From contig CM034546.1 of assembly GCA_020055645.1 (NCBI GenBank), positions 40,858,001 to 40,922,000 on the forward strand: a stretch of DNA of 64,000 nt. The letters are read 5' to 3'. Positions 35,641 to 64,000 of this stretch are shown here, piece after piece. Origin of the DNA: Tomocerus qinae. Its lineage: Eukaryota > Arthropoda > Collembola > Entomobryomorpha > Tomoceridae. Under the pieces are notes generated by a model. That model was not told where the DNA came from. It saw nothing but the letters and a program-made list of their open reading frames with translations, and did not search any database. How positions within the stretch are numbered: the stretch's first letter is position 1; each line of letters begins with the position of its first letter. The position numbers and the translations under genes were made by a program.

Positions 35641-35771
35641 CTGTTAGTAGTATAATATATAATTATATTATACCACTTTTGTTCGGAAGGAAAGAGAATG
35701 GAACACTTAATAAGGACAGTGTACAAAACACCATATTTCACCCACAAGTGCTAAATGATATTTAGCGGTAT

Positions 35772-36287: not shown

Positions 36288-36291
36288 GTAT

Positions 36292-38413: not shown

Positions 38414-39367
38414 TTTATCTTTTTGATTTATAAAAAAAATTTTGGTTAATGAATCAATTTATATATGAGCTAACAAATTTTGCCAATATTATTAGAATTA
38501 CATTAGTTGTAACAAAATATGGTGAAGTTCTGGAATGAACACAAAAGGTTAACACGCTGATGTCGAACTAAATTTAGAAAAAGTGCAGACCCTTGTTAGA
38601 CCCAAGTTGCGTTTATAAATAATTACTACCCATAATAAATTGTGTGCCTTGCAATTTTTTTAAATTGGCATTCCACAAACAGATAGCGCTATTACTTCTA
38701 CACTGCAGTGTACAAAATTTACCACTGTTTATGGTTTTTTATTATGGTAAAAATGCACTTGATGTTAAAATGGGATTTTAATGACGAATTTTGTTCAAAA
38801 TTTTATGCGAAATTTAAATAACATTTTTACATTTCATTCCATTTGCCACTAATTTACAAAAATACCTTTAAAAACCACTTACCAATGGCTTGTGGTAAAT
38901 GGTATTTTGAACACTGATTCCATATACAATTATTTTGGAACAAATAAATTTTCCAGAGATAACCTTTAACTTACACCAGAATAATTCCTTCCTTTTCCAT
39001 GCTGCATGTTTATAAAGTAAAAAGGTACATACGTATTTGTTTTATCTTTATTAAATACAATGCTTGATAATAACAAGTTGGAAGTTGTCCTCGACTAACA
39101 TTCAAAGGAATTGCAGCTAAATTTATATTTAATAATACAATGGGTGCCAATAAAACTAGAAAGTAATACCCGGATATAAGACACACCCATGGCCAATATG
39201 TTATTAAGGTTAGCGCCATGCAATTCTGTACTTATAATAAACTATGATATTTGGAAAAAGGTAGAAATAGTTAATTGCAACAACTTTGTTCATGACATTT
39301 ATTTGTGTACCAGTAATGTTTAGCTTACTTTAAAAATTGTTTTATCAGTTATTATAAAAGTTGCTAT
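38414..39367. other. CR8 upstream region with a MITE copy (about 38706-38925)
   Basis: The MITE starts 'cagtgtacaaaatttacca' and ends 'ggtattttgaacactg', the same family as 35219-35445. 38926-39360 is a diverged duplicate of 16.92-17.4 and 25.18-25.59 kb. No gene. Confidence 0.5.
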
Positions 39368-40753: not shown

Positions 40754-41138
40754 TTTCGTTCTTTTAAAGCAAAATAGAAAAAAATTGTTATTAGAAATTT
40801 TAATAATGTTCGTAATATACCTAAATAGGAAGGATAGAACTCTGAAATGTCTGAACTGACAAGGACATAAAACATTACTGCCCAAAAATAGCAGTAAAAT
40901 TGTACCCAAACCAAATAGATTTGATTTGGATAGACAATTACTGATTGATAATAGGTAGCTTGCAGACAGTAAAAAAAGCTTTTTTTCTGATATCAGTGTT
41001 CCAGATCGATTTGTAAAAGACACTTTCTATAAGCTATATTTACAAAAAAATAATTTGAGAAAACGGCTTGTAAATCGAAAACAATCCAGAGTATTTATAT
41101 CCCGATTTTCCTTGGAATAATGACGTTTAAAATAATTA

Positions 41139-41955
41139 CCGTATTAATCGAATTAATTCTCCGTATTGAAATAGTGCTCCCCTCGGGTAACTATTTCGAT
41201 TATTTTCGTTTTCAAGAGAAAAATATTAGCCTTTGAAATATAATTCTCCGTATCGAAATAATTCACCATCCCAATCTAAGTTTCAGTAGGTAAATTTAAA
41301 TCCTGATGTACTTAAATAGTGAATGTATGAGCTTATACGGCGTAAGATAGAAATGGTAGATTTGATAAGAGTAAGAATGGTCACCAATACAACTGAATTG
41401 CAACTCCAGGGAACGTAGTCCTTTCCTTACCGAAGCGAAAGAGGAAATTCAAGACCACCTCCGTTGACAGCGGTTTGTAATTGGATTTTTGCTAAGCATG
41501 GGACACTACTTCTGATACAAAATCAAAAATACATTTCACTCTTGCGGCATTATGAATCGACATGATTACAGCCTTAAAACCTGGTAAAGACTGTATTGAA
41601 GTTAGGGGAACTTCTGCTAAAAAGCACCTAATTAATATCCAGAAACTGGTATGACAGTAATTGAAGAGAATGACATACTATTGACTATTGCCCTCAGACA
41701 ACGAAGACTGATCACTGAAACCATGGACATTTCTTCAGAAAAAGACTAAACTCAATCAATTGAATTTTTAAACTATTTCTCATTTTTTTAATTTTCAAAA
41801 AGTACTAACTTAATAAAAATTGACGGTTGGAAAATAATTCTCCGTATCGAAATAATTCACCACCTGGTTAACTATTTCGATTTTCATCGTTTTCAGAAGC
41901 TAAAAAAAGGTGAATGAAACAATAACAACCCGGAGAATTAATTCGATTAATACGG
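41139..41955. mobile_element. Pogo/Tigger-like non-autonomous DNA element, TA target
   Basis: Ends ccgtattaatcgaattaatt (left) and its complement (right), each bordered by TA (41137-41138 and 41956-41957). CCGTATT...TCGAAT-type termini and TA duplication resemble pogo-group elements. Subterminal 'gaaataattcaccacctgg' and 'taactatttcgattttc' words repeat on both sides. The middle has no intact transposase frame. It lies ~390 bp upstream of CR9. Confidence 0.65.
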
Positions 41956-42300
41956 TATACAGTTCGTATCTGTCAAAACTCTAGGAGCCAATATATAAAA
42001 TGTCAATTAAGTTTTTTCACCCCAACTTAGGCCTAAATTGTATATAATCAATGTAATTGCTTAAGAATGTAAAATGATAGATAAAACCAATTCATTAAAT
42101 AGTCAATTAAATATCGTTTCTTGGACGACCTGTGCCTGTTTAACTATAGAACGTCCGCGGCAATAAATAAAAATATTTTAGTCTAAATATCCTCTCTAAT
42201 TGATGTTAATCATGGACATGACTGCATGACTTATTGCTCACTATTGTTTATATTATGATATAGTTGACATTTAATTACCATAAGTTTAACTTTAATTATC

Positions 42301-43165
42301 AATTTTAATATGACTACCAATTTAACTTAAATTACCAGTTTTAATATGATTACCAATTTAACTTTAATTACCAATTTAACTTTAATTACCAGTTTTAATA
42401 TGATTACCAATTTAACTTTAATTACCAGTTTTAATATGATTACCAATTTAACTTTAATTACCAATTTTAATATGATTACCAATTTAACTTTAATTACCAG
42501 TTTTAATATGATTACCAATTTAACTTTAATTACCAGTTTTAATATGATTACCAATTTAACTTTAATTACCAATTTTAATATGATTACCAATTTAACTTTA
42601 ATTACCAGTTTTAATATGATTACCAATTTAACTTTAATTACCAGTTTTAATATGATTACCAATTTAACTTTAATTACCAATTTTAATATGATTACCAATT
42701 TAACTTTAATTACCAGTTTTAATATGATTACCAATTTAACTTTAATTACCAGTTTTAATATGATTACCAATTTAACTTTAATTACCAATTTTAATATGAT
42801 TACCAATTTAACTTTAATTACCAGTTTTAATATGATTACCAATTTAACTTTAATTACCAGTTTTAATATGATTACCAATTTAACTTTAATTACCAGTTTT
42901 AATATGATTACCAATTTAACTTTAATTACCAGTTTTAATATGATTACCAATTTAACTTTAATTACCAGTTTTAATATGATTACCAATTTAACTTTAATTA
43001 CCAGTATTAATATGATTACCAATTTAACTTTAATTACCAGTTCTAATAAGATTACCGTTTTACCTTCAATTACCAGTTTTAATATTATTACCAATTTAAC
43101 TTTAATTACCAGTTCTAATAAGATTACCGTTTTACCTTCAATTACCAGTTTTAATAAGACTACCA
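42301..43165 (+). repeat. 36-bp minisatellite, about 24 copies, with a 108-bp higher-order period
   Basis: Unit: ttttaatatgattaccaatt followed by taactttaattaccag (36 bp). One base near the unit end alternates G, G, A over four consecutive triplets in the left half, a 108-bp super-period. The right part is uniform and the last units are diverged ('ttctaataagattaccg'). Because 36 is a multiple of three, both strands show long open frames (42327-43094 minus, 42346-43176 plus). They are repeat artefacts, not proteins. Confidence 0.9.
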
Positions 43166-43640
43166 GTTACCTTTAATTTTTGGCTTCAAATAGCGTTACT
43201 ATTAAAAACCACTTACCACTGCCAAATCGTAAATATTATTTTGTGAACTAATTTTGTATAATTAGATTGGAACAAAGAAATGTTCCTGGCTTAGTGTTAT
43301 CATAGAATAATTCGTTTCTTTCATGCAGCACTTTTATATCAACTATAGCTTTATTTGTATATTAGAATGTTTGATAATAATATTATGCTTGAAATTTTAC
43401 ATAAAGAATATTCAAACGAATTAAAGCCCAAACTATATTGTATAGTACAATAGGTGTCAATAAGACTGTGCAAATAGTGTCATGAATCCTAACATCCTTA
43501 CTAAGAGCCAGACTGTTAAACTTTTATAAATTGATAGCTTTGAGTAAAAAATCAATTTTCCGATTGCAACCGATTAAATTTAACGACAACTTTTGTTTAC
43601 CTGCTAAATTTTACTAAATTCTTTAGGTGTAAAATTTATT

Positions 43641-44126
43641 GATCCTGCATTCCCATGGGGACTATTTTCAAATCGAGGGGGACATGAAAATCGCTTGTCA
43701 TTGGTGGATGAAATCTTTTATTGACCAATCAGAAGGCAGCATTTCATTTCTAAATTTTATATGATTTTCAAAAAGCCCTCCCAAGGGAAATATTTATTGC
43801 AACATTTGACTTCTGAGCAGCCGTGGCGTTAGAATGCGGTAACATGGAAAGACGCCTATTACTTCAGGACACCAGTTACTTTAATACACATAACTTCTTA
43901 TGGTTACTAAGGTATTTTTTCCATGAAAATATCTACCCCCTTACTGTATTAAAGCTGTCAAATGTTGCAATAAATATTTCCCCTGGGAATGCTTTTTGAA
44001 AAGCATATAAAATTTTGAAATAAAATGCTGCGTTCTGATTGGTCAATAAAAAATTTCATCTACCAATGACAAGCGATTTTCATGTCCCCCTCGATTTGAA
44101 AATAGTCCCCATGGGATGACAGGATC
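43641..44126. mobile_element. MITE with ~165-bp terminal inverted repeats
   Basis: Left 'gatcctg' then 'cccatggggactattttcaa' and right complement 'ccccatgggatgacaggatc'. The arms also pair through 'gggggacatgaaaatcgctt' and 'tgcaataaatatttccc'. A ~150-bp unique core. No coding. Target duplication not resolved. Confidence 0.7.
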
Positions 44127-44194
44127 AGTAATTGCATACCTAAAATATATTCGTACCTGAACATTGAAAGTAATGGCACTATATCAGTATTTAC

Positions 44195-44345
44195 AGATTA
44201 TAGTATGATAATACCTTCTGATACACTGAAAATTGCCTACCATTATGTTATGCGTTTGTTGAGCAAACATGTTACCTATTTTTATAAGCAAATGTGTTTT
44301 TATTGTAATTGTAAATTGTATTTCTGGTTTCAATACAACTGCAAA
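44195..44345 (-). pseudogene. Decayed fragment of receptor exon 3
   Basis: Matches the basic patch and pre-TM7 region ('gcgtttgttgagca' and 'attgtaattgtaaa' on the plus strand) with many changes. Older than the other relics. Confidence 0.45.
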
Positions 44346-44493
44346 TATTTCTAACTGATTTCAAAAATCAGTTTGGGTTGGGCACATTTGTACCGACATG
44401 GTTCCAATTATTCAATAAACATGTCATATTCTGAAATTGTACTATAGTAAATGTTATTCCGCTTTTAAAATTCTAAGCAATTTGACAAGTGAT

Positions 44494-44919
44494 GGATGTT
44501 ATGTTATATGGGGTGTACTGTCTCACTACATAGTGATAGTACTGGGCGCAGGCCTCAAATACGGGCCCATTGCCAACTCCCTCAACACTGGTATTGTTGT
44601 TAATTAATACCCGAGAAGCCTAAGGCTGTCATTTACGAGTCACTGTCGTGGGACTGTTATCGGAAGTCTACTAGCCCAACAAAGACAGGTTATCCAAAGC
44701 TACTCTACGTACACTCTCAATATACGAGGTATCAATAGGACGGCCCTTGTAATTGCGGGTTCGTGCTTAACCTTTGTCTTAATTCCACATTAACAACTCA
44801 AACACTCGCCTTTAAACAGCCCTCGGCCATTTCACCCAGCCAAAGTAACGAACTGGCAGTGGAAGCACACATTGATTAGTCAGACGACTGAGTACTCCAC
44901 CAAGCCAACGTGGCTGGGT
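44494..44919 (-). repeat. Retroposon-like insertion (possible SINE) with 14-bp target duplication
   Basis: tgacaagtgatgga flanks the block on both sides (about 44479-44493 and 44920-44934). The insert is GC-richer than its surroundings. On the minus strand it starts with 'cacgttggcttggtggagta', which resembles a pol III A box, with 'cagttcgttac' ~55 bp later as a weak B box. Target repeats this long are typical of LINE-driven retroposition. The family is unknown to me. Confidence 0.45.
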
Positions 44920-45069
44920 GACAAGTGATGGAACTTTTGTAATCATTTTATAAATTCAGCTAAAGGTTACTGGGTATCTACCTTCCTAAATTTAGCCAAA
45001 TTTTGCTGGGAGCTTAGTATATTATATTGGCAGTTGTGAAAAAGTCTGTTGCTGCAATTTGTTCTGGAA

Positions 45070-46406
45070 TTACCATCGAGAGGAGAAAAGCAATAAAGTA
45101 ACTAAGCCGTTTGTCATGGCTTCATAACAGTCGGTAAGATGTTTGTGTTTTACGTTTTTGAGAGTTCCATAGCGAATTCCGAAAGGCAGCAATGCGTTGA
45201 CAATTTTTCGCGTTCTCTTATTTCTTACGCTTGACTCTTTTCAATTTCTGAATGGTGCTTAGGTTGACATCGTAGAATTTCCCTGCCCCTAACATAACCA
45301 TCGTGAGGAGAAAAATATATTGACAACTACAGAAATCAAGAACCCGATTTCTAAATCTGTCAATAATTTGTGGAAACGTAGCATAAGGAAGTTAAATATT
45401 GTGGCTGCAGAAATCATGAGAAATACGAAAGTCGGCAGGTAAATTGTTTCGCAACTGGAATTGTAGGCACTGTTGAGGACCTGTAACTTCTTTTGTATTC
45501 CTTTATTTTGCGTTCCAGGGATAATCCTCTAAAAAAGACATTTTAATTTTGGTCATAAAGTAAAAAAAACACATTTTTGTTAGAAAAAAATGTTTAACGT
45601 AAATTTTAGCTCACCTTAGGAGATTCTGCCAGTGAATACCATATAGGACATAAAGGACATTGTAGAGGACTGTGAAGATATACAACCAGGCCCAAGCCAC
45701 TTTGAGAATATAATCCACAATGGAAAGAATAATGCAGTAAAATGGATTAATAGGCATGTTCTTTTGGAGATAATTTGGTGGCATTTGATTTTGACTGACG
45801 GATATCAATATTAGGAGCATGCATGGCGTGTAAGGAATTAGTGCTTGGAATCCATACGATATTATCTCTTCCAATTTTGGTTTTTTCTCTTCGATGACTG
45901 AAATTAATTTTGGAAATTTGGTATATTTGTTAGGATCAATTAAATTTATTAATATTATAATTTAACATACTTTTTGTGTGTTTATTTAATTTTGACAGTT
46001 GGTTGATGACATACACAATTTCGTGTTTCCGATTGGACAGGGTCCGGCAGACTACGTACATCTCCAAATAAAATGATGCCCAAATTAAGGACCATACAAT
46101 TTCGTATACATTTAATGGAGCATTTCTTACATCCATAACCAAATATAAAACTTGGTAGATGAAGTAAAAGAATGTCAATGAGGTAAAAAGTTTAACTGTG
46201 TAATTCCGAATTGACGAGCTTGGTAATTTTAACGTTTGGTTCAGTTTATCCCATTGAAAGGGAAGAATACCGCAAGCATGAAATAACCTTACATAAACCC
46301 CAAATATTTGTAAATAGGTCTTTTGATCACCCAGAAAACGTATCTGCTTTTTAATTTTATTATGAGTGGTAACTTTTGGAGTTACAACGCAGCATGTATT
46401 GTTCAT
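45070..46406 (-). pseudogene. CR10: divergent chemoreceptor, exons 1-2 open, exon 3 frameshifted
   Basis: Exon 1 45971-46406 starts 'MNNTCCVVTPKVTTHNK' and carries 'ACGILPFQWDK', the counterpart of 'GSIPLVW', then two membrane segments ('FTSLTFFYFIYQVLYLVM' and 'YEIVWSLIWASFYLEMYVV'). Exon 2 45615-45897 is open ('MLLILISVSQ...YIFTVLYNVLYVLYGIHW'). Introns are GT-AG with the same phases (1 and 2) as the array genes. Exon 3 (45070-45528) shows receptor-like pieces in different frames: 'SLERKIKEYK', 'LMISAATIFNFLMLRFHK' and the end 'ALLPFGIRYGTLKNVKHKH' plus 'GLVTLLLF'. About three frameshifts, so probably dead unless the sequence is faulty here. Its divergence marks it as a separate, older branch. 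Confidence 0.7.
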
Positions 46407-48829
46407 GATTATTAAGTAAATGAAAATGTATTCACTATATCTCCTATTTGTATCTATCAATAATAGTGATGTTATGTATACAATTCAACTTTATTTATTC
46501 GGAAAAACTAAGTTCTAAAGAGTGAATAAATATTAAATAATGAAACGCGAAAAGCTTAAATTTTTTATTTAAGTTGTGCCTAAACGAGTGGTCTTGATCA
46601 AGCAAAAATACTTTTGAAAATGTGAATTTGAAATTTTTTGTGATGATGATGTCTGCGTTATATTGTGAATAAGCCTCATGCAATCCAACAAGCCAGTTTT
46701 ATTGCCCTTATATATCCTTTTCCTGGATCAAATACAGTAACCTTCCGTAAAAACTTTGTTTTTCTGGCTTTCGGGCTATATTGAACGAGCCTGAATTGAA
46801 TAATTATTGCAATTGGAAGAAAATGATTTTATCTTACTACCTAAATGCCTTTATTTATTTAATATAATTTGATGTAATATGCAGTATCCCTCAGTCACAT
46901 TTCTCATTTTTGGTTACATAGCATTCTAACATACCATTTTAATTAACTGTTTGTTTATCTCTTAATGGACATTGAATGTTAAACTATGGCTTGTGCAGGA
47001 ATGTCAAGTCAACAAAATATATAATATGGAAAAGTAATCCCATAAATGCAAACACAATTTCCTTCTAGCAAAAACAAATTAATTTTAATCAAGATAATTA
47101 TATTTAAAATAGGTATAATCGTGTCTACCTAAATAAAAAACAGAAAATGACTTTGGCTTGAAAATATTTTTTATTATGATATTTGTTTTATTTCTATTAG
47201 CAAGGAATAACGCATTCACCTTCGTAATTGGGAATCATTATTTTGTTGAACTTTATTCAAAAGGATCAAAGAATAGCGATTTCAAAGATATCGTCCGATA
47301 AGCATGTAAAAATCCTAAATTCACTTCTTGTTTGGCAGTGGAATTAGTCTTACAATACTTTTTTTGCCACAGAAAATAGCCTTTTAGCATTAATACAGTC
47401 ATCTTCAATACTTCAAATGTTGATGCAATGTTTATCAAAATCTATCAAATGTGAAAGGCATACAACACAATGATAACCAATTTTATTTCATTAAAAGGTA
47501 AAATTTTAAACGTCATGCTACATGGGATGCCTTAATGATCAAAGTCTGCAATATAAAGTTAGGAAACCTGAACCCATTACTCATGAGCAATAAGCAAAAA
47601 TTAAAAAATGAGAAATATACTGTCCCAATTTTTACTACGTACGTACGGAGGAAGGTTGCCAATTTAACAATTAAGATAAGTCCCATTTTACTGACACTGA
47701 CTGTGTCTATTTAAAATCAAGTAACTTGTAGTAAAGTTACTCATTGCTGCCTGCTGCACGCTGCTTAGTAAGCGTATAATCAAGACAGTCTTAAGGAGGC
47801 CGTCTGTACAGACTTGCCGCATTATTTTCCAGGTGTCGTATTGTAGATTAACAGTGCAGAGCTCAGAGATTGAACTTCTTCAAGAAGTTTGGAAATCTCT
47901 CGAAATGGCGCATGGGGTCAATGAGTTTGGACTACGGGAGGATCGTAAAAATATAGCTCCTGCCCCGGAGGAAAGTGTGGACTGTTGTGGCCTCGCTCTG
48001 GTCCTCCACCACACCACTCCTCCGTGCGATATCGCGATATGAATACAACAACACAATCTAACCACATTTGATTTGTTTGTATTAGACAAAATGGCAAAGT
48101 GAAGCCATTTCACATACACATAACACGCATCGTATAGCCTCATGTATTAAAACTGCCACCAGTCGAAAATTTTATTCGTTAGGCCATGTCAAGGTCAAAG
48201 GTCATTGGAAAAATTCACTAAAAACGTCATGTAACGTCAGATAATTAGTTCAATTTTTTATGCAATTTCACACCACTTTTTTACATCTATTTGGACATGG
48301 TTTATTATTTCACTAGGACTCCACAGTACTAATTCTGAATTTAAAAATGATTACGCATATTAAGGTTCAGGGGTGGTTCAAAATACGGGGAAATTCAATG
48401 AGGGGCAGGTTCTAGACTTAAATTTTTTTAAATTATTGCAATTAGATTTTTTTAAATGCAACTATATCAAAAATCCAGTAACTCCCTTTTGTCCCTGGAT
48501 AGCCCACGATTCCAAAAATGCAAGTCCTATAAAAATCGGACTAAACCGAAGCAGAAGAGAAATTGAAGCAGATGAAATGATGTTATGATGAATTTTAAAT
48601 GCAATGGAGGTTGACCCTAATTGCTGCTGATGGATAATCCGAGGGCATAAGTCAACGCAATTCCAAAAAACTAGATTCTAGGAAACGGGGAACTGGGGAA
48701 GTGTATTATATTATAAAGATTTCTATACTGACTTATAATAGCATTTCCATCAATGCATTGGCAAATGGCAATAATGTTATTGTTATTACTATTTTTGAAG
48801 TTGGCATCCTTTCTGGTACTCTTCTTGTA
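46407..48829. other. Spacer with unassigned open frames
   Basis: A minus-strand frame at 47253-47438 ('STFEVLKMTVLMLKGYFLWQ') follows an AG acceptor-like site and could be the last exon of an unidentified gene, but no partner exon is visible. A plus-strand frame at 47833-48042 lies in a GC-richer patch. A plus-strand frame at 48373-48588 is also unassigned. None recognised. Confidence 0.3.
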
Positions 48830-49054
48830 CTATGATCGCCAAATAACTTTGGACAATAAGATTGAAGAACAATAAAACCGATAAGAATACATAATAGGCG
48901 AGTTCGCGTTTCAGTGAGCACGAACAAAGGTGCTCGTTGAAGCACGAACTCCTGTATTTTTCATGCTCACTGATGCGCGAACTCGCCTATTATATTTTCT
49001 TATCGGTTTTATTATTCTTCAATCTTATTGTCCAAAGTTATTTGGTGATCATAG
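48830..49054. mobile_element. Tc1/mariner-type MITE, 225-bp near-perfect hairpin, TA target
   Basis: Ends ctatgatcgccaaataactt and complement ctatgatcaccaaataactt, bordered by TA (48828-48829, 49055-49056). The arms of ~100 bp pair almost perfectly through 'gacaataagattgaag', 'ataaaaccgataag' and 'ataataggcgagttcgcg'. A small loop contains 'gtgctcgttgaagcacgaa'. The high arm identity suggests a fairly recent origin. Confidence 0.75.
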
Positions 49055-49056
49055 TA

Positions 49057-51100
49057 ATAGTCACTGACTTGTCCAATTTACTTCCTCCGCCAAACTCGAT
49101 GTCAGATGGTAGACGGTTTGTTTGTGTTTTGTGAGTATTAGGAAACAATAACATACATTCATAATATCGCGCACAATCTGACGTCATTTCTAACGGTCAT
49201 ACCATTGAGGCACCTACGAACGGATGATCGAACTCACAGAGCGAGTTAATTGTACATATTTACATGTAATTATTTTCGAAATTTATTTGCGATGCAGGGC
49301 CAATTCTACATTAGCTAGGGTGTCATGCGAGAGGTCAAAAAAAGATAATCTAATGACTTGGTTACTCAAAGAGGCGGATTTTGGATATCCGTTTTGGGAA
49401 AGCCGTAAAGATAACCTTTGCAAGTGTCCTCACAGTTAGCGATCTAAATAAAATTTTGAAATTTCCCCTTTGAGTAACCCCAAAATGCGATTGGCTTTTT
49501 TTAAAGCTATCATTCGTCTTTGTAGCTAGCGTAGATTTGGAGAATCGTTGCAGAGTATGAGACCTAGTCGAGCATGATTTTAAAACATGAAAAACGGCAC
49601 TCTTAATATGAAAGCCTTTAGTTTCTTCCCCTATTGTATCATTGGCAAATGAGTAATTAATGCTTTTTTATAAAAGAAAATTATAATGTTTTTGTTCTGC
49701 TGGGACTTTTCTGTTTGGTATATAATTATCATGTCGTCCCAAGTACGTTATTAAAATTTAAGGTAGATAAAAATAAGTAGTTTACTATATACCGTCTTAG
49801 GTATTTCCTTTATATGGATGAAATAATTAACTGCAAACAAATTAATTACAATTACAAGACTAAGGAAATTATGAGACAAAAAGAGACAGAGTCAGACCCC
49901 AATTTAAAACCTCGTTATAAAAGATGCATACTGTTAATGGGAAAAAACCATATATTGTAGGATTCTGTATGTAGTTCGAATTGACTTGAAGTATTTTTGA
50001 TATCAGTTTTTAACCATAAAAGACTTTTTCTGGTGTAGTTAGTTTAGGAAAACGTAACGGAAGGATTAATAGATTATAGAAGGATAGTTCTTTATGGATG
50101 CTATTTAATGGGTCAATAAAATAATTTATATCGTCCACGAATAATAATTTAATCGGTAAATGCCAATCATATTCATTAAAGCTTTTAGAACGTCAGTGTA
50201 CTCAATTTTAATAATAAGCAGTTCAAAAAGTCAAATTACTTAATTGATAAATAAATAGGATGCACAAATAAGAACGTATTTTAATTGTCGTAATAGGTTA
50301 CCGTACGAATGGTGACTAAGCTATGTCTATGTTTAGGAAACAAAGAATACCACACGACTACACTGAAATGGTTAATTATACATCATTATATTTATAGAGC
50401 CTTATTCTTTAGTCTGCACTATTTTTTAAATTAAAAAGATTGCCATCTTGCCAAGGTCTGCCTTGGACTTCTCATAATATATTGTTTGCGTGCAGGTAGA
50501 AGAAACGTACCTTTTCGCATTGTATTCCGCTTATTTAATTACATGATTATTGCGGAACAAATGTCCACAACGGGGTTTGTTATAGTTATTAGAACACAGT
50601 AAAAAATTTACATTGTTTTTTTTAGAAAACAGATGCTTAAAATAATAATAGTTTTGTCTGTCTAAAGTTTAAAAACAATAAGATGCAGGTTTGTAATCTA
50701 TGGAAAATATATAAACGAAAAAAAATCATAAATTGAGCTTAATGATTTGATGGTGCAAGGTGCAATGAATGTCAATAAAATACCGGTGTAAAATAATTAG
50801 AGGGAATAAACCGTAAATTATGGCTAATATAATAGTAGTTCATTATAGTTTCACTTTCACATAGTTCATACTAGCCAATAACAACACATACATAGCCAAT
50901 AACAAGATGATTAAAAATTTTAAAAGTTTTCATAAAACTTAAAACTTGTTTTCCGACTCCGATTTAGGCCTACCTAATACCAACCTAAAGGTAGATACCA
51001 AATTTTAAATTTTACATATTTATACAGGATAATCATTTGGATATACAAGTTGTCACTCCTTCATATACCAAATAATTAATACAAGTTGTCAAGATACCTT
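49057..51100. other. Spacer; no supported gene
   Basis: AT-rich sequence. A 71-codon plus-strand frame at 49224-49439 is unrecognised. No RNA gene, clear transposon end or receptor relic seen. Confidence 0.4.
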
Positions 51101-52619
51101 TCAAAATGTGTGAAGGAGTTGCATAATGCCGCAGCTTAAGGAGTATAAAAATGACATAATTTTTTTTCGTCTGACAATCTGGAACCCACCAATATATATT
51201 TTGTGCGTTTGTTGAGCAGCATGTAACCTCTTCTTGTAGGGAAATGTTATGTCTTTATTGTGATGATACACTGGGTTCCAGGATTTAATGCAAACCTTTG
51301 ATTTGCTGTAAATTTCTGATAGGCACCACAGTGTAAAAATCCATATTATAGACGCTGTTATAGCCATTATTAAGACTAGTAGTATAAACCAAATCTGCAG
51401 GTTATGATGCTGGCGAATTATTAGATACCAACCAAGAAAAATACTTCGCTTCATAAGAAACTGTAGTGTTTGAGAAAAATTGTAGCGAATTCGTCGACCA
51501 TTTTGGTGAAAATACATAACATTTTGAAATATTTCAGGGCATTGTATTCTGAGCGGACTTCATTTCTTGTAGTATATGATTTCCCACCATATCTGCATTG
51601 ATAAAAAGAGATAGAAGTAGCACTGACGTGTTAGGTTATATTACTATAAAAAATAATATAAAGGCCTACATTGTTTTTTAAAGTTCATAAGAATTTACCG
51701 AGACACCGCACCGATTAGCGATTTACATTGATTTTGTGAATACCTCTCTAAAAACCTTGTGAACTTAGAACGATTTTCACAAACTAGAGCTTAAGCAGTT
51801 AAATATGTTAATATATTACCTGATTTCACGTATAATTAATTTATAGCTTGTGATGTATACTGTCATGGTTATTAGAAGAAACATCAGCAAAGTAATCCCT
51901 TCATAAGCAACCCATGAAAATATTAAGAAGTGAGCAAATACAAGGATATAGTATAGATTTCCAATATCATCTGCAGTTAGGAGTAATGATGTAGCAAAAT
52001 GTGACCAGTGTGGGTTTAAAATTGCTGCTGTGCCGTATAATAAAGGAAACATTCTCCCGGTGTATATCCATGTGACGCTTATTATGATATCGTGAAATGG
52101 AAAAAGTTCGTATTTGCTCTTTTCCAAAACATATTGATCTAATACACAAAGTAAAATTCATTATTTTCATTACATTAATATTTAAAAATAGGAATTTTAA
52201 TAAATGCTTTCTTACCAACAAAATCTTCATTCAACTTAAGGAATCCATTAATTACCAAAATTATGGTATCACATTTTAAAAACACACAATATGCGGCCGA
52301 TAATGCAAAGAATACAACAAATAACATGGCCATGCACAAATACGTTGATATGGATTTTGAATTGTGGCTCATTTGATAGAAAAATACGGTTGAAATGAAT
52401 ATCAAGTATACATGAAGAAGTAAAAATAATAAGTTTGGTTTTTACTAATTTGCTACCCGAATGCTTAACTCGTCCATCATTTGTCCAAACCAAAGGTATA
52501 CTACCCAAAAAATGTCCCTGGTTCATAGATTTCTTCAACAGTTCTCGACAAATTGAAACACATATTTCTGCGTTTAGTCATGGAATATTATAATAGTTTT
52601 CGATATACTGATAGGGCAT
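51101..52619 (-). pseudogene. CR11: gamma-subfamily chemoreceptor pseudogene
   Basis: Exon 3 51101-51592, exon 2 51820-52138 (fully open, 319 nt, 'DQYVLEKSKYELFPFHDIII...'), exon 1 52216-52619 ('MPYQYIENYYN'). Exon 1 has TGA at 52578-52580 where CR7 has Arg CGA, and loses frame near 52440 after 'SKLVKTK'. Exon 3 is one base short near 51470 (compare CR7 'ctcataacact'), shifting frame before 'QFLMKRSIFLGWYL'. Splice sites remain normal. Closest to CR7 on the other strand. Confidence 0.8.
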
Positions 52620-53091
52620 TTTTATTCTGTACATTTTTTGAATAAGTAAAAAATATATTTGTCAATGAATCAAGTTCATAGAAGTTAACAAATTTTGCTA
52701 ATATTAGAATTGAATCAGTACTATTAAAATCTAAACTGGTTGGAAAAGGTGCGTGTGACACTAACGTCAAATCAGATAATCCAAAACCTAAAGATAAAAA
52801 ATTAGAGAGTGTAATTTTTGAAAAAATGTATACTGACTGTATTGAGTCGTGTGCTATGGCTTTTATATAGAGATTCGTATTCGAGAATCAGTTCGGTATA
52901 ATTATTTCGGAGCAACGAAATGTGGCATTATTATAAGATTTAGCGATCAATTACGTCCTTTTTCATGCAGGGAGTGAGTTGGTGAGTACCTTTATAATAA
53001 GTATACTTGTTTTTATCTTTACAAAATAAAATGTTTTATAATAATACGTTGGAAGTTGTGCATGAAAAACTTCAACGTCTAACTCATATAG
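52620..53091. other. CR11 upstream region; no gene
   Basis: Contains the array-wide spacer words 'tttcatgcag' and 'cttcaacg'. The stretch 52970-53080 and the stretch 54060-54210 look like two diverged copies of the same spacer on either side of the element at 53092-54027. Confidence 0.4.
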
Positions 53092-54027
53092 GTAGGGAGA
53101 GTACTGTCGGTTGTCCGAGAATTTACTTTGGTAATTTTAACAATTAACCTACAACATTTCTCATAATTATGTGTTATACATTTCATTTGTTATGTTCTTG
53201 GGTACAAACATAATAAATTTCACCAACCATGTATTTCTCAAAGGAGGTGAAAATTATTTTTATTCAAAACAACTTTTAGTGCTGTCGGTTGTCCGAGGGG
53301 ATGCTGTCGGATGTCCGAGTTAAAGTTAATAGTCATAAAACAATAAAAATAAATTTTAACTTTGTTAATACTCAATCCTGGTTTCGTCTTCGAGATCATG
53401 TGTCAAAAATTTTAACGATTTCGCAACTTTCTTACGGTTAAAAAGAAAATAATAACGGAAGCATCTAGAAATTCATAAATGAATGCATCTAAGACGATGC
53501 TGTTGGAAATGCAACCGTAAAAACGTTGCGAAATCCCTGACAATGAAATAAAGTAGACATATTATCTTTAACCAAACCATAATTGATTAATCAAGTTAAA
53601 ATTGGTTTTTAAAATTTTTTAATCATAAGATTTAACGCGGAAAGCGGACAACCTGCAGTAGTCGGACAACCGACAGCACTTGCACATTTTACTAATGATC
53701 AATTTCCCCTGTAAGGGGTAAAAGCAAAAATCTACAACTATTATCAAATGTCAATCCCGAATATCTCTACTTTTCGTCAAAAAATTATTACCTTTTAATG
53801 TTAGTCACAGCGGCTGTAAATAAAAATTTTGTTGAGTATGAAAAATTTACTTTGAAGGCTCAAATCCAACATCTATTTTTTGAAGCCACATTTTCCAACG
53901 GATTTCAAAAATATTTTGTGACAATTTCGATTTAAGAAGCTTACATATGTATAAAAAATCCCAGTGCTTATTGATAAGGAATACTTGAGATAATGGCAGT
54001 GGGACAACCGACAGCGCTCTCCCCTAC
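53092..54027. mobile_element. Unclassified TIR element with six copies of a 'tgtcggttgtccga' motif
   Basis: Ends gtagggagagtactgtcgg and complement gtaggggagagcgctgtcgg. Three direct copies of the motif lie in the left ~230 bp (around 53105, 53282, 53304) and three inverted copies in the right ~390 bp (around 53644, 53660, 54002). Repeated subterminal motifs are typical transposase-binding sites of P- or hAT-like elements. No transposase frame and no convincing target duplication. Confidence 0.6.
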
Positions 54028-54648
54028 GTTTAATACACAACCATTATTTCGTTTTTTCCCATGCAGCAAGTTAATAATAAGCATGGGTACTTGATTTAGT
54101 ATCTGCATAATAATTTGTTGTGAAATGTTTGTTGTAGAATTTATTGTAAAATGTTAGTGAATAATAAATTGGAAGTTATCCATTAAAACATTTCAGCGAA
54201 TTAACGTAAAAATTATGCTTAATAGCACAACGGGGGCCAATAAAAATTACAAATAATATTCTGAATCCGGACAGAGACACGAATTGTATGTAATAATTAT
54301 GTGCCAGTCCTTAAATGTAGATTTCATAATTTTTAGCTAAGCTTTTAGACCTTATAGTTTCAAGGGAAAAATTAAACTTAGCCATTGCAACCGATTGAAT
54401 TGAACGGTAATTTCTCTTGCTAAATTTCTCTAAATTGTTTACGACTACATACATCGATACATCTCAACTCCACAAATTGTCGTGAAATGGGAAAATTTAA
54501 TACATATTCATTAGTCACTAGTGGCCACTAGTCACTTCCCATTACATACCTAAAATATGTCGTTGGACAGTTTAAAGTAATTAGCAGCTTACCATTAGCA
54601 TTGATTACCGAGTCAGTGTTTCATGCATTCTGTCGTCATCTCTCTATT

Positions 54649-55271
54649 GATAAATATATCGTCCCTTAAGAATCGAAAAAGCCTGTATCCACTTTCAGAT
54701 TGGTACCGGAATAAGCCTATATCCATTTCTTATTTGGTATTGATACATAGTTAATATGGGCGGCGGAAATATTGAACTTTTATTCTTCCTTCCAGCCAGT
54801 TTAGTTTTATGCAATATCAAAATATGAATTTGTGTCATTAAAAGTTTTGTTTTTGTCTTATTGGGTAATTAGCTAAAATTTTGTAATGCTTAGTACATTC
54901 TAGCATGATATAATTCAAGTATCAACATAAAAATAATAAATACTTCTATTACAAAGAATATTAACTTATACTTCACTTTCAATGATTTGGTTGCAACCAC
55001 CAATGTAACTAACAATAATTTATATTTATTGGAGAAGACCGATCATGCACCTTTCATTCATGACATTCACTGATCAACTGACATTTTTAGAAATAACAAC
55101 TAACAATTTATGACATAGTACGATATGAGTAGACAAACATAATAAAATATTAATGCTCTTTATAGGTAGGCTTATTCGTCCACCAAACAAAAAAATGGAT
55201 TTAGGCTTATTCGTCCACCAATCTGAAAGTGGATACAGGCTTTTTCGATCTTGAAGGGACGATATTTTATC
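54649..55271. mobile_element. MITE with subterminal repeats ('atatcgtccctt' ends)
   Basis: Left 'gataaatatatcgtccctta' pairs with right 'agggacgatattttatc'. Next to each end are repeated modules of 'gaaaaagcctgtatccactt' and 'ggcttattcgtccacca'. Interior without coding. A related partial end lies at about 57140-57290. Confidence 0.6.
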
Positions 55272-55290
55272 GTCTTCTGTACTACTAAAA

Positions 55291-55540
55291 TTATTCTGTT
55301 GTATCGAACCATTTGAGTTAATTTGTAGTTAAAATGTTAGGCGAAAACTAGAGGAATGCAACCCGAAAATAAATACTATTCGTGACACAACTAATTGGGG
55401 GTCGCATTGTTTATTTGATGTTTTTTATTTCATTTTAGATAATTTTGTGGGGCTTATTATTATTTTTGGCCTACTCTTGGCCTGACTAATCTAAATGGTC
55501 AACCCGACCTACAAAAAATAGTCTAATTATTTTAGCTAAA
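55291..55540 (-). repeat. Inverted partner of the 31004-31255 repeat
   Basis: See shared words 'ggttgcattcctctagtttt' (as complement) and 'ttcgcctaacattt'. Directly adjoins the MITE at 54649-55271. Confidence 0.6.
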
Positions 55541-57140
55541 GTTATCGGCATCATTACGGCCTGACCCGAACCGCCTAGCTCTGACAAGTTGTATGATTAG
55601 TAAATATGTTGTGATGTAGATGTGACTTGGAATGTGTGCGTGTTGCAGTCAGTACTTGCGTTCTCCCTACCACACGTACAATATATATATAGACAGGTAA
55701 ATTTATTGCTTTATAAAGTCTACGATTATATATAGAGATACACAGGTAAATGTTCATCCCGGTGGTTTCCAAAATGCTATTCTTCTCTATGCACAGGAGG
55801 AATGGCAATACCCACAAACAACTTTAAGAAAAAAATCAGCGTCTTGAATGCAAAATATCTTTTCAATCCTTGCCTCGACGGATTTTGATGAAAGTTGGTG
55901 TGGAAACTGTTCATAAGTATATTTCAGAATGATTTTTGAAATCCCTTTTTTTATTACATTAAGCTCAGTACACGTAAAAGAGTATCAGAATCGCTTTAAT
56001 CGTAATTAGTCACTCTGGACTGGCTTAATTTCTGGGAAAATATAACCCTTTCCCGCTGATAAAGTTTAGCTTCGCGGCTGCGTAGAATGGAGGATAAAAG
56101 ATATTTGAGACAAAATGGGATTTAATCTTTTTTAATCTACAATGAATGAGTGGTCCTATTGTAGAGATAATATAGTGAAGAGTTGCTAGTTCTTGTTCTA
56201 CGTACTTATCAGCAGATATTACATTTCTACAGCAAACGTAATAAATGGCCATTGACATATTTGTAACATAAAAAATTTTTGAAATACATATCATGAACAC
56301 ATTTTCTAAATATAATTCTAAAGTAGATAAATTGTTTTTCCATTAAATTATCCCAAAATCTTACTTAAAAGTACGGAATTATATAGCCCAAAAGTAATAC
56401 AAAACGTATTGACAGTTTTCTTTTCATTGATGTACAAAAAACTAATTTATGACACACAACGAGTTTCCTTTTGAATTTACATAATCTTCTAAAGCAAGTT
56501 TTTGAAACCATGAGATTTTTCTTTTAAGGTAATAAAACCAATTAGTCTCAAAATTTGTTTCAAGTATAATGTAAAATTCGTCGAGACATTTTTATAATTT
56601 AAAGCTTAATTGACACATGAATAAATAAAGCGCAAAATTCATTTGGTTACTAATAATATAAAAAACAGAATAACAAATGTATAGATAATATATAACTCAA
56701 AACTCATTGACAAATTTAGTATTATACAACTCACAACTCATTGACGACATTAATAATGTAAAAATCGTTGACACATTTTTCTTTTAACAGGGCCGGGAAG
56801 TAGTTTGGCATGATGCCCTGGAAAAAGCTTAGTTTATGGCCCCGTCTTTTAAAAAACTTTAATGTTATTTCAAATTCTAAGAACAGAAAAATTTCTGTGA
56901 CAAAAATGTTGATATTAAAGTAAGGTATTAGAAGAATGTCAACTTTTAAATTAGGACTTATGATACTAATATTATTAGGCTTTTTCAAGCTATGTGCGAT
57001 TAAAAATTCCTTCCAGACTTTCATCAAAATGTGCAATACTAAAAATGTTTTACCATCATGTTTCAATAATTCATTTTAAGTGGGCGCACCCCTCCGTCGA
57101 GGTATTCTAGCGGAATTTATCATGAGCTCAGATGTATGCA
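55541..57140. other. Spacer with unassigned minus-strand open frames
   Basis: Frames at 56731-57066 (111 codons, 'KVWKEFLIAHSLKKPNNISI' and 'KRRGHKLSFFQGIMPNYF') and 56025-56300 (91 codons, 'SADKYVEQELATLHYI') have plausible protein composition and could be pieces of one minus-strand gene. I recognise neither and find no convincing splice pair. Confidence 0.3.
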
Positions 57141-57292
57141 TTCGTGTGGGTAGAGGCTATTTTCACTGCCAAAATCGAAAAGTGGAGGGAGGCTCTTTTT
57201 CACTCGCAAAACGAAAAATGGATTAAGGCTCTTTTCTCACTGACCAACGAAAAGTGGATTAAGGTCTTTTTGCATCCTTAAGGGACGATGTA
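57140..57292. mobile_element. Partial end of the 'cgtccctt' MITE family
   Basis: Repeated 'aaaagtggattaaggct' modules ending in 'catccttaagggacgatg', matching the right end of 54649-55271. The opposite end was not found. Confidence 0.5.
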
Positions 57293-57916
57293 ATCTTTCT
57301 ATTTTATTTATTTCAAATATTTCATTTTTCAAGGAAACAGGGAGTGAAATATTTCGCGAAGTATTTCAAAAATTTCACCCATTTATTTCCAAGAAATATT
57401 TTCAAGTGCGTTGTCTGCTAATCATTAGTTTACAAACCCTAGGAAAATCCTAGGAAATTTTGAATTGAATTGTAACGGCGAATGTGCGCAATCTCTAAAG
57501 CTTTTTCAATATTTAAACTCAAACTTCTTTTAACGAATAGAGCGTATTTCTTGATGTCCTCATTATTTATGTATTTATCGATTTTATAATTAGTTTAGAA
57601 TTTTTTATTACGCGTAAGAACTTAGAGAGTACCGTAACAAAAATGATTAAATATTCTATAATACAATTAAAACATTTTTTGTTATTTTTACTGCCTTTCT
57701 CTCGTGCCATCGCCCTGGTTGCCCACCCACAATCAACCGTCCCCTGTCTTTTTATTTACACTAATGATAAACATTTTCAATTGATCAGCTAAAAATGCTA
57801 ATTTACATTTGTTGTAGGTAAGTGTTTACGCAGGTATTTATTGTGGTCCTTGGAAATTACATTCATTACATATTTTTGCTAGTTTACTAAAAAAGAACTC
57901 CCTTTTAAATTTTATC
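57293..57916. other. Sequence up to the gap; nothing recognised
   Basis: AT-rich, no gene or repeat supported. Confidence 0.4.
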
Positions 57917-58016
57917 NNNNNNNNNNNNNNNNNNNNNNNNNNNNNNNNNNNNNNNNNNNNNNNNNNNNNNNNNNNNNNNNNNNNNNNNNNNNNNNNNNNN
58001 NNNNNNNNNNNNNNNN
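57917..58016. other. Assembly gap of exactly 100 Ns
   Basis: The round number indicates a scaffold join of unknown size rather than a measured gap. Confidence 0.95.
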
Positions 58017-61000
58017 TACTGATATTTTGACCATTTTAGCCATTTTGACCATTTTGACCATTTTGACCAGTGGCCCGGTCATCAAATGCAAAAAGTGGCT
58101 TCAACAGTAGTACAACACAAGTAATTAAATGAGTGAAGACCCTGAAGCATTCTTCTACTCAAACTTGTGAAATATTTTTACTTTTCGTAATTGAAGGTGT
58201 AGGCAAAAATAATTTATTAGTTTTGCAATCTGTACGTCTTTTTCTTAATTTTGAATGTTTAATTTATTAAAATATTTTGAGATGACAGTTTTTACGCATT
58301 GTGCAGAAAAAGTCAGTATTGGTTCAGGACCCAAAAATTGCCATTTTTGTTGATTTTTTGGGAAGTGAGTTTGCCTCTTCGTTTCCTATGATCCCAGTGT
58401 GACTGGAAACCCATTGAAGGGTAACCGATATGCCTTTTTCGGAAAGTATATGCAAGGCTCTAAAGTGCCATTCAAGAATCAGGGCCGAGTCTGTGTAGTT
58501 CGCCTCAAGAGCTTTTAAGGTGCTCTTAGAGAATCACTATAGATGATTACCTCGTACTCTCCAGTTCAGATCAGTGATTTTTAAAATAACCATTAGGACA
58601 TACTAGTCCTACTAGTTCCGCTTGGAACACAGTAGGATACTGTCCTAAACATTGTTGTATCATGATGTGACCACTATCAATGTTACCACCATTACAGCAC
58701 ATCCAGCTAAGTTGTCAATTTTTGACCCGTCAGTGTGGTAACAGACCAGTCTTTGGTTTGAAGGTTGAAGAATACCGGGTTTTTCTGTGTCCAAAACAGT
58801 AAAATTCTTACCCATGAGGGCAGTTAATAATTGAATCCATAGGGAATTCTAACTCAGGCAATTGTTTCAGAATATTTGTAATTAGATCAACGTGAGTTAG
58901 AATCTTTTAAGGCTTCCTCTCCCGTGCCAGTGAAGCCATTTTTCCAGTACAGCGCAGACGATGCGCTGTTGTAATAGCAAAGTTTTAGTAAGAAATAGTC
59001 TCTATAGGTTCAATACCTACTATACATTCTAATGCTGCAGAGGGTGAACTATGCATAGCACTAGTAGTCATAAGACAGGCCAGTCGTTGAACACTGGCCA
59101 AAGCTGTCATTCTGGATTTGTTGTGAACAGCTGTTAGCCACGAACAAGCTGCATAGGTGATAAAGCGGGTCTAACTACTGCTGTGTAAAGTCAGCAATGT
59201 GATTTTTGTAGATGAGGTCCCATGTTTGGCCAACAGCTCTTTTGCATTGCATAAGAGTCTGCTTTATGCCTTAGCACTTTTAACGTTACAGTGGGTAGTC
59301 TAAGTCAAGTATATTATCCAAATGGGACACTCCAGATACCGAAAGACATTATTGACAAATGCAATGTTCTCAATTACCTCTCAATCTAAGAGGTTTCATT
59401 TTGGGTTTTTTATGCCGTGTATGAAATATAATAATTTCCCATATTTTGTCAGGGTGGATAGAAAGATCCCTGCTGACTGCAGCCCAATTTTCAGATGATA
59501 CTGAGGGCTCTTTGTCCCAGAAGCTCTCTCATTGTAGCTTCATCTATGCCAACCTAAAGAAGGCCAAGATCATCTGCATATGCTTGTCTGTATATAGAAC
59601 TGACGTTGGAGAGCTTCTCCTGTAGTTCGTGAATGACCAGATTCCATAATAATGGCGACAGCACCCCCCCCTTGAGGGCACCCTCGTTCAACTTTTTATG
59701 CATTGAATGGCGCTACCAACGGTAACGTTTACGGTACGATCTCTTAGCATTCGTTTTATCCAACAGATAATGGCTACATTTTCTATTCCCTTCTCTTTCC
59801 AGAGCCAAATGAATCGTTTGGAAGGTGGCATGGCCTAAAAGCCCCCTCGATATCTAAGAAGATACCGAGAGCCATTTGATTACTCTTGAGGGCAACATTC
59901 AGTGCGAGCAATGTATGTTTGGTCTTTGCCAGCAATTTCTATAAATTTCTTTTTAAAATGTTTGAAGGAGTTCTACAATGCCGCAGCAGCTTAGAGAATA
60001 TAAAAATGACATTATTGTTTTACGATTGGCAACCTGAAAGCCACCAATTAATATTTTCTGCGTTTGTTGAGCAGCATGTAGCCGCTTCTTGTATCGAAAT
60101 GTTTCAAGCTCTTGTTGTAATTGTAAACTGGGTTCCAAGATTTAATGCAACTCTTTTGATTTATGATAGACTACTTGATAGACACCACAATAAAAAAATC
60201 CATGCTATTATCGGCGGTTATAATCATAATTACGATCACTGCTGTTATAAACCAAACCTGCAGGTTTTTATGTTGGCGAATGACTAAATAGCAACCAAGA
60301 TAAACACTTCGCTTCATAGAGAAATTGAAGGATTAGGATAAAAATTGAAGCAATTTCGTTGATCATTTTGGTGAAAAGCTATTCAAACATTTTGAAAATG
60401 TTTCAGCGTATTGTTTTCTGAGCGGATTTTCACTTGTTGCATATGATCTCCCATTATATCTGCATTCATTAAAGAGAAGTATAAGTATAATTGGCGTGAA
60501 AATTCATATTCCTATGTTATTAAAGATATATAACTATAATTAGATTATGCCAAATAGTGTCTTAAGTTCATAAGAAGTCACCTTAAGGTAGTTAATTATG
60601 TAAATATATTACCTGGATTTTCACGTGTAATTATTTTATAGTTGGTAATGTATGCTGTAGTTGTAATTAGAAGAAACACGAGTAAAAGTAGTCAGGGCAT
60701 AAGCAGCCCATGAAAAGATTAGGAAGTGGGCAAACACAAGGATATAGTACAGAAATGCAAAGTCGTCTGTTGTGGGGATTAATTGGGTTAAAAAGTGGCC
60801 ATTGTGGCTTTAGAATTGACATAACAGCAAAAAATGTTGGAAATATTATTATTATTAAGGGGTCCGGGCCCCCTTAATTATTCGGAAAAAGTGTGCACAA
60901 TATTTTTGTCAAAAAAGGTGAAAAAACCAAAAAAATTTCGCGCTTCGCCATGCTGAATATGACTTACATTTATCAATATATTTTGGTGGGCCCCCCTAGG

Positions 61001-64000
61001 AGTCAAATTCCTGGATACGTGCTTGATCCATGTAACGCTTATTATGGTATTGTGAAATGGATTAAGTTCGTATCTGCTCTTTTCCACCACAAATTGATCT
61101 AATTAAAACAAAATAAAATTCATTATTTTGACGTCATTGACATTTAACAACTTAATATATTACTTATTACGACGTTTTTTTCCAATGAAGTCTTCATTCA
61201 ACTTAAGGAATCCATTATTTTACCATAATTATAAGGGTGTCACGTTTTAAAAATACACAATATGTGGTCAATAATGCCCAGCATACAAGGATTAACCCAG
61301 CCATGCATAAATGTATGGATAAAGATTTTGAACTTTTGTCCATGTTATGGAAAAATGTAATCAAAATGAATATAAGATATATGTGAAACAGTAAAAATAG
61401 TAAGTATTGTTTTAGCCTTGTACTAATTTGCTAGCTGAAAGTCTAATCTCTTCTTTCACTTGTCCAAACTAAAAGGTATACTTCTACCTAATAAATGTCC
61501 CTGCTCCACCAGATTTCTTCAACAGTACTCGACACATTTGAAACACATATTTCTGTATTTAATCTTATAACACTGCAATAGTTTTCTTGAGATACTGAAA
61601 AGACATTTTCATTCTGTAATTTTTTGATTTATAAAACTTATTTCGTTAATAAATCAATATATATGTGAGCTTAAAAGAAAATTTTGCCCAACATTAGAAT
61701 TAAATTGGTAGAAGGAAAATCTGGTTTGAATCACAAAAGTGTTGACACCTAGATTTCGAACTAAAAGTAGGAAAAGTGTAGACCCAAAGTTTCGTTTATA
61801 AATGTTTACTACTTATAGTAATTTGTGTGCCGAAGGCAATTTTTTTTAAAATTGGCATTCCATGACAAAATAGTTATTGCATCTGCACTACAGTAGTAGA
61901 GCAAAATATGTCAATGTTTATATTTTACTGGAAACAATGGTAAAAATGCATGTAATGGTAAAATTGGACTTTAGTGGCGAATATTATTGTTCTAGATTCC
62001 GTTTGCGAAATTTAAATTAAATTTGCTTAATAGATTACTTAAATAGATTGCTTAAATTAATTTTTAAGTAATTTTTATCGTTTATTCCATTCACCAGTAA
62101 TTTACAAATAAATACCTTCAAAAAGCACTTACCACTGGCAAGTGGTAACTAATACTTTGAATCCGGATTCTATGTATAATTATTTTGGAACAAATAAGTT
62201 AGAGTAATTGTAATTTCGATCCTTTCCATGCAGCACGTTTATAATAATTATAAAGGTACGTAGAAATCTGCTCTATCTGTATAATAGAATGTTTGATAAT
62301 AATAAGTTGGAAATTGTCCACTAAAAGTATTCAAACGAATTAAAGCAAAAATCATATTTAATAATACAATGGGAGCAAATAAAACTAGCAAATAGTATTC
62401 GGAATCAGATATGGTTCATATAACCAATTGCCTTGCCAATATGTTATTAAGGTTGGTGTTAAGCAATTCTGTACCTTAAATAAACCATAATATTTTGAAA
62501 CCAGGCAGAAAATATTTGGCATAATAGAGACCAGACAGCAACATGGTTTACTAGTTATTACAAAAATTGCTATTCAAAATATTTGAAGCAGTTGCATATA
62601 ATGCCACAGCGAGGGAATATAAAAAATGACAGTAATTTTTTCCATCTGACGATCTGGAAACCACCAATTAGTATTTTGTGTGTTTGCTGAGCAGCATGTA
62701 ACCGCTTCTTATAGGGAATGTAACACCTTTTGTTTTACGATTGTAAACTGGATTCCACGATTTAATGCAACTTTTTTATTTGTGGTAGATTAAACATAGA
62801 ATCACCACAACACAAAAATCCATATAAAAATTGCTTCTTCGGTTATAACTACCTCCAAGTCCCCAAATTCGTCTAGTATTATAAGAGTATCCAAAATAAA
62901 ATACATCAATGTAAACAATTGCAATAGAAAGGTGTATTTTAATTGCATTAAAAATTATAAGTGTCGCAGAATTTACATTAAATACGTCATTCGAATTCTT
63001 ATGACAAAATGACATTTAAGCAGATTGTAGCTTCGGTCGCAGTTCAAAACTCTATGCTGTAAATCATGTATTAATTTTCTTTAATTTGGAAGTTAGGCTC
63101 GATTGAGATTTGCAATAATTCTATCTCGGATAGAATCAATTACGTTTTCCCAAATCGCTGGTCGAAGTAAGGCAGATGTTGCACAAACAACTGTCAATAT
63201 AATGTCTTATATCCAACCTAATGACTAGGATCGGATTGGATAGCTTAAATTTTTGAATGATAGCGACTCTCCGGTTCGGATCGGCTTAATTTTTTTGCAG
63301 GTTCGATTCGGATTGATCACATTTTGTAGTAATCTTAAGCTCGGATCGCTTAAACTTTTTTGCATTACAGCGACTCGGATGCGAGGATCGCTCAAAATTT
63401 TGAATGACGGCGACTCGCTGGTTCGGATCGTTAAAATTTTTTTGTTGGTCCGGTTCGGATCGCTAAAATTAATTTGGAGGTTCGGTTCGGAATGATTACA
63501 TTTTGGCATTAGATCTGGATCGGTTCAGTTCGCTTAAAGATTTTGAACGATAGGGACTCGGTTCGGATCGCCGATCAGGAAGTTGCATGTGTGCTCAGAA
63601 CTTAGTTTTTAGATGTGTCATGAACTATTACCTCAATGTCAACTTAAGTGCTATGGTATAACATTCTTGCTATTTCCTTATCAATTTATGTCCAATCTAA
63701 CAAATAGAATCCTAATATTGTGAATACTTATGTTTTTTTCAATTATAAGATATTATATGGTAGTAGTATGGGGCACCTGCGAAGAAATCGGACCTTGACT
63801 TTGTTGACAAGTATCTCAGGCCTAGCTTTGAAGTTGGTTTGTATTATGTAAGCAGAAATTTGACTCCTGTAAAATGTTGAGTATACTAATGAATTGAAAT
63901 GCCGTTTTTCATGCTAGTATGTAAACAAGAAGTTTGAATTGTTGAAACTTGTATACACTATACATACTAATACCTGTCCTCCCGTATTTTAATAATCTAT
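58017..64000. other. Second copy of 21152-26953, probably an unpolished assembly duplicate
   Basis: Collinear with 21152-26953 from the first base after the gap to the window end. It contains the right part of the LINE's MITE, the LINE (to ~59925), CR6, the upstream MITE, the exon 3 fragment (62570-62860) and the tandem repeat (63225-63580). Differences are almost all 1-4 base indels, mostly extra bases in this copy (5984 versus about 5802 bp), scattered evenly through coding and noncoding parts. That is the pattern of raw long-read error, not of evolution. It begins abruptly in the middle of a MITE. Confidence 0.8.
59953..61612 (-). pseudogene. CR6 duplicate after the gap
   Basis: Same structure and same lesions as CR6 at 23025-24639: MITE in exon 2, altered exon 1 donor, same stop. 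It also has many extra small indels. Probably not a separate locus; do not count it as a further receptor. Confidence 0.7.

Follow-up and report, generated by a model that had tools for sequence, protein, structure and literature searches.

The window analysed here is a stretch of 64,000 nucleotides from the collembolan Tomocerus qinae (C1:40858001-40922000, where C1 is contig CM034546.1 of GCA_020055645.1, an assembly of 334 Mb in 115 contigs). It contains a scaffold gap of 100 N, to the left and right of which lie sequences that we call contig A and contig B. The sequence that follows the gap is very probably a false duplication: the facing ends of contigs A and B appear to be an unmerged overlap of about 37 kb, in which one and the same locus, partly in the form of different alleles, was entered into the assembly twice. 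False duplication at the gap had been proposed in an earlier sequence-only reading of the window. It is the best-supported explanation because the repeat forms a dovetail at the gap, insertions and deletions (indels) crowd at the contig tips, the extra bases of the second copy are private to it where relatives allow a test, the core of the repeat is free of substitutions, and the flanking sequences each occur in full length at a single place. The sequence read for the analysis amounted to 134 kb (the window with 10 kb added upstream and 60 kb added downstream), and positions outside the window are given in extended window coordinates. Below, the copy at the right end of contig A is referred to as copy 1 and that at the left end of contig B as copy 2.

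In a BLAST alignment that spans all of 58017-64000 and 21152-26953, identity was 95.9%, with 38 mismatches and, at 128 gap openings, a total of 210 gap bases; this agrees with the collinear repeat described previously. In a global alignment with gap-friendlier scoring, the later copy had 128 extra-base events (203 bases), 15 missing-base events (21 bases) and 19 substitutions, and the net excess, put earlier at about 180 bp, was measured as 182 bases. While difference counts vary with alignment scoring, indels were in excess of substitutions under both scorings. Further matches of this block within the window were 73.8% identical over 1,887 alignment columns and 83.3% identical over 1,024; the most similar other match of some length was 94.0% identical over 450 columns. 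Since these other matches are shorter and mostly more diverged, neither chance nor a local gene family explains the repeat.

Within the window, the repeat can be followed to 26953 of copy 1, a limit that is imposed by the end of the window only. In the extended sequence, 21152-57916 and 58017-95154 are colinear copies of 36,765 and 37,138 bases, and the part visible in the window is about one sixth of the repeat length. The first bases past the gap correspond to 21152 onward, the bases up to 95154 match the last bases before the gap, and past 95154 contig B runs into different sequence. Local alignment of the 500 bases left of 21152 with the 500 bases before the gap gave a score of 24 (maximum of 100 shuffles, 26), and alignment of the 500 bases right of 95154 with the 500 bases after the gap gave a score of 16 (maximum of 100 shuffles, 23); thus, neither 500-base pair showed likeness above that of shuffled sequence. 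The repeat is bounded to the base by the gap on both sides, and the ends of the two contigs dovetail. The copies are joined by the gap only, and no sequenced junction between them is present in the 134 kb.

The copy number of the repeat and its flanks was determined by genome-wide searches, in which only the best candidates were scored (40 per search; all five for 95155-97655), and the numbers of places are therefore lower bounds. For the left flank (19000-21151), a single full-length place was found, with partial matches elsewhere in the assembly, and likewise for the right flank (95155-97655), whose other match was 86% identical over about 2 kb. A 3-kb core piece (45500-48500) was found at two full-length places, which are both copies, plus dispersed repeat fragments among the matches listed. 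Likewise, two full-length places were found for 52700-55160 and for the last 955 bases of the overlap. Among the best candidates, no third copy was seen elsewhere, the next best match being 93% identical for the part resembling a long interspersed nuclear element (LINE) and repeat fragments only for the core piece.

Counted along the entire overlap, copy 2 has 214 extra-base events (475 bases) and copy 1 has 76 (102 bases), and the copies differ by 66 substitutions; against 290 indel events in all, substitutions do not dominate. An even spread of differences, as claimed in the sequence-only reading, holds for the 6 kb visible in the window (3-17 insertions per 500 bases, fairly even); for the entire repeat it was rejected by a table of differences per 1 kb, in which they are concentrated at the tips and in substitution tracts. 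The stretches listed in Table 1 were delimited by eye after viewing that table. Indel density is 25-28 events per kb in the first ~8 kb of contig B and the last 1.5 kb of contig A. The last densely placed insertion of contig B lies about 8.1 kb in, and 58017-64000 is wholly within this tip. Homopolymer runs of 3 or more house 51 of the 181 tip insertions in contig B and 19 of 40 in contig A. In the core, where 28 indel events were counted, 27 are single-base and 23 are located in such runs. Residual error dominated by insertions is typical of early PacBio reads and not of nanopore reads; the assembly was presumably built from noisy long reads.

Table 1. Features of the repeat around the scaffold gap. 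Tallies list first the extra-base events of copy 2, then those of copy 1, and last the substitutions.
Feature	Position	Strand	Tally	Remarks
Scaffold gap, 100 N, with contig A on its left and contig B on its right	57917..58016			Sole N run in the window and in the 134 kb
Right end of contig A, overlapping contig B (copy 1)	21152..57916	+		Ends directly at the gap
Left end of contig B (copy 2), from the first base after the gap	58017..64000	+		Extends outside the window to 95154 (C1:40953154)
Copy-1 stretch facing the error-rich tip of contig B	21152..29010	+	181, 19, 20	
Stretch	29011..32165		3, 0, 0	
Short substitution cluster	32166..33239		6, 5, 15	
Overlap core, 17,327 bases	33240..50566	+	17, 11, 0	
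Substitution tract, probably allelic	50567..55161	+	4, 1, 27	20-base and 116-base indels between copies
Stretch	55162..56419		1, 0, 1	
Error-rich tip of contig A	56424..57916 (tallied from 56420)	+	2, 40, 3	
LINE-like open frame, 194 amino acids in copy 1	21707..22291	-		Longest open stretch 62 amino acids in the copy at 58593-59190
Two-exon receptor-like locus	23025..24672	-		C-terminal exon 23025-23570, N-terminal exon 24187-24672

The polarity of the extra bases was examined using a retrotransposon-like stretch of copy 1 (21256-22972), for which 43 matches were listed genome-wide, two of them being the copies themselves. Six relatives (L003-L008, the non-copy members of eight loci) served for comparison, and the test covers about 1.7 kb of the tip of contig B. 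Against each of the six relatives, copy 2 displayed 41-42 extra-base events and copy 1 displayed 3-4. When single insertions were compared together with 6 flanking bases, only the copy-1 form was found among the relatives in 28 cases out of 42, and neither form in the remaining 14. For single substitutions, the copy-1 form only was found in five of eight cases and neither form in three; for single deletions, the corresponding numbers were three and one out of five, and in one case only the copy-2 form was found. Judging from the relatives, and where they allow the test, the extra bases in the tip of contig B are private to copy 2. The tip of contig A is presumably in error as well. The open frame in this stretch (Table 1) had no Pfam family match, and the label LINE follows the sequence-only reading.

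Two observations weigh against an unmerged overlap of one and the same sequence. The dovetail geometry taken by itself would also result if the tandem duplication were real and its junction had been lost in the gap, and 15 substitutions within 1.1 kb, 27 within 4.6 kb and indels of 20 and 116 bases are unexpected in a pure same-sequence overlap. As to the first, a very young tandem duplication, 36.8 kb or more in length, would have doubled five loci of an otherwise old receptor-like array in this individual, and the assembler would have broken at the duplication, leaving the gap where the junction was. The array does hold many paralogous blocks, and the geometry is compatible with such an event. 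Yet a core of 17.3 kb that is free of substitutions (by the rule of three, a rate of at most about 3/17,327) demands a very young duplication, while array alignments of at least 1 kb other than the copy pair are far more diverged (66-86% identical). Moreover, noisy long reads would hardly be able to separate two such copies, and the indel-rich tips, with contig B extra bases private to copy 2 where tested, would be left unexplained. Differences between the copies are also not dominated by substitutions, which speaks against a real tandem duplication, although in a very young one substitutions might be too scarce for this comparison. We thus regard a genuine young duplication as very improbable.

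Ordinary gene-family duplication, with the repeat as an older paralogue within the array, can be rejected with near certainty. The neighbouring array is full of paralogous blocks, but between such paralogues substitutions should dominate, as they do among the LINE relatives (in the two pairs compared, 47 substitutions with a single indel, and 82 substitutions with none), whereas between the copies indels dominate and the core is without substitution. The sequence-only reading had argued that the copies are the same locus and not an older paralogue. Both points are supported, with the correction that the overlap is not purely one sequence plus errors, since the part between 50.6 and 55.2 kb looks like a real allelic difference. 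Because the copies align end to end, they do share features of the kind noted earlier, including those provisionally labelled MITE and CR6.

The second observation bears on alleles. The 27 substitutions of the tract at 50567-55161 correspond to 0.59%, and 18 of them are transitions; 10 are located in a dispersed repeat (53095-54015) and 17 outside it. In the short cluster at 32166-33239, only 4 of the 15 substitutions are transitions, and it is less clear as a candidate allelic difference than the longer tract. Probably, contigs A and B carry different alleles along part of the overlap, and this may be the reason why they stayed unmerged. The 116-base indel is located at 55161 and the 20-base one at 53278, copy 2 being the longer at both. 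The 20 bases are nearly the reverse complement of the adjoining bases (19 of 20 by eye), like the end of an inverted-repeat element.

One can ask whether the pair is allelic throughout, contig A ending in one haplotype and contig B starting in the other (a heterotype false duplication only). This is a variant of the unmerged overlap and the two are not mutually exclusive. The longer tract, with its substitutions, few short indels and two larger ones, does look allelic, whereas the 17.3-kb core without substitution argues against allelism over the whole length. With a uniform distribution of the 43 substitutions found in the 27.4 kb between the tips, the chance of an empty core would be about 2e-19, a figure that rejects uniformity only, since substitutions are clustered. 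A run of homozygosity could still yield a substitution-free core, and for this reason a mixture of same-sequence (homotype) and heterotype overlap is likely. On balance, a purely heterotype origin seems to us rather unlikely.

We propose that the unmerged overlap arose as follows. Contigs A and B of a noisy long-read assembly would have had ends overlapping by about 37 kb, contig A ending at 57916 and contig B starting at 58017, which corresponds to 21152 of contig A. The scaffolder would then have set them side by side with a gap of 100 N, leaving them unmerged. The outermost stretch of each contig was probably poorly corrected, likely because few reads supported it, which would have produced insertion-rich tips; we found no literature report of insertion errors at contig ends. 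Between the tips, the contigs would represent one locus, plus a tract in which their alleles differ.

The overlap is located in an array of two-exon, multi-helix receptor-like loci that spans 3257-52800 and continues in the extended sequence to 122852, mostly on the minus strand with one locus inverted. The label "receptor-like" is our interpretation of several hydrophobic helices and the layout of the array. No family reached the cut-off in Pfam searches with the exons tried (lowest E-value 0.018). One C-terminal exon had no match among PDB sequences, and the exon profile gave a single match there, at E 0.97; a low-confidence predicted fold (mean predicted local distance difference test, pLDDT, 58.4) had no match in PDB either. 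None of the 46 genomic matches listed for 7tm_7 was in the examined stretch.

Exon profiles were built from eight members for the C-terminal exon and from five of the six members of A2 for the N-terminal exon, with the distant sixth left out. The profile searches detected five C-exon loci in copy 1 (at 23028, 30377, 36931, 39371 and 51104), a larger C-exon fragment at 25580 and small matches at 31321 and 44275, as well as five N-exon loci (at 24190, 29046, 37967, 40322 and 52178). All these matches recur in copy 2. In keeping with the expectation that gene counts would be inflated, five two-exon loci are doubled: the 134 kb contains 17 C-exon loci, or 12 with the overlap counted once (by our grouping, fragments excluded).

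The copies differ in the state of their open frames. Tip indels disrupt the copy (59953-61645) of the two-exon locus listed in Table 1, and four open frames facing the tip of contig B shrink from 194 to 62, 181 to 62, 161 to 71 and 163 to 141 amino acids between copy 1 and copy 2. Among six open frames farther in, four are identical between the copies and two differ (211 and 177, 235 and 224 amino acids). Quality does not favour copy 1 throughout, as its own last 1.5 kb is error-rich. At locus 30377, the profile score was better for copy 2 (5e-97 versus 9e-91 in copy 1), so either copy 1 is not error-free or the copies are allelic here. Small indels distinguish this inverted exon (30377-31012) from its copy at 67440-68036, and what looks like a lesion in copy 1 may reflect either an allele or an error of the consensus.

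Two other features of the window were noted. A tandem repeat with a spacing of about 72 bases (42285-43178) can be read without a stop for about 280 codons on either strand. An open frame of 163 amino acids at 948-1439 matched the FLYWCH zinc finger (E 7.5e-06; 26.4 bits versus a cut-off of 23.6).

The relevance of these results is practical, for users of the assembly, rather than biological. Double counting of about 37 kb and of five two-exon receptor-like loci could pass for a recent expansion of the gene family, and open frames in the tip of copy 2 look broken because of tip indels. The overlap also provides a built-in replicate of one locus, in which the 17.3 kb of the core show 28 indel events but not a single substitution. 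If all of these are errors, equally shared between the copies, they suggest a core indel error rate of roughly 0.8 per kb per copy, which is sufficient to disrupt reading frames. Short-read polishing performs poorly in duplicated sequence, and the core rate may for that reason exceed the rate elsewhere in the assembly.

Comparison with known assembly artefacts places the overlap, in what we take to be its best reading, among homotype overlaps at contig boundaries, with a heterotype part. As described by the Vertebrate Genomes Project (PMC8081667), homotype duplications of this type arise where contig ends overlap; on scaffolding, they become tandem copies that are separated by a gap and differ in consensus quality. 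Our case resembles it in the dovetailing ends, in the gap between tandem copies and in consensus quality, which, judged from the sequence only, differs through the indel-rich tips. It departs from that description in having substitution differences in part of the overlap and perhaps also in length, as such overlaps have about the size of a corrected read, for which 37 kb would be a high value. Another parallel is the combined heterotype and homotype duplication depicted in Extended Data Fig. 6c of the same paper, where, as here, a contig-boundary overlap is allelic-looking in part and identical in part; homotype and mixed false duplications are also treated in the relevant portions of PMC9516828. 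The undercollapsed contigs of Aedes aegypti before the Hi-C merge, as outlined in PMC6421076, were likewise overlapping long-read contigs within one scaffold. According to that account, they were attributed to heterozygosity and merged, whereas the present overlap was retained and is without substitutions over much of its length. As regards consequences, the parts of PMC9516828 on platypus V1R genes report that 43 of 267 annotated genes were false gene gains. Although that case concerns another animal and another gene family, and ours a single locus, in both of them duplication in the assembly inflates the copy number of a receptor or receptor-like family.

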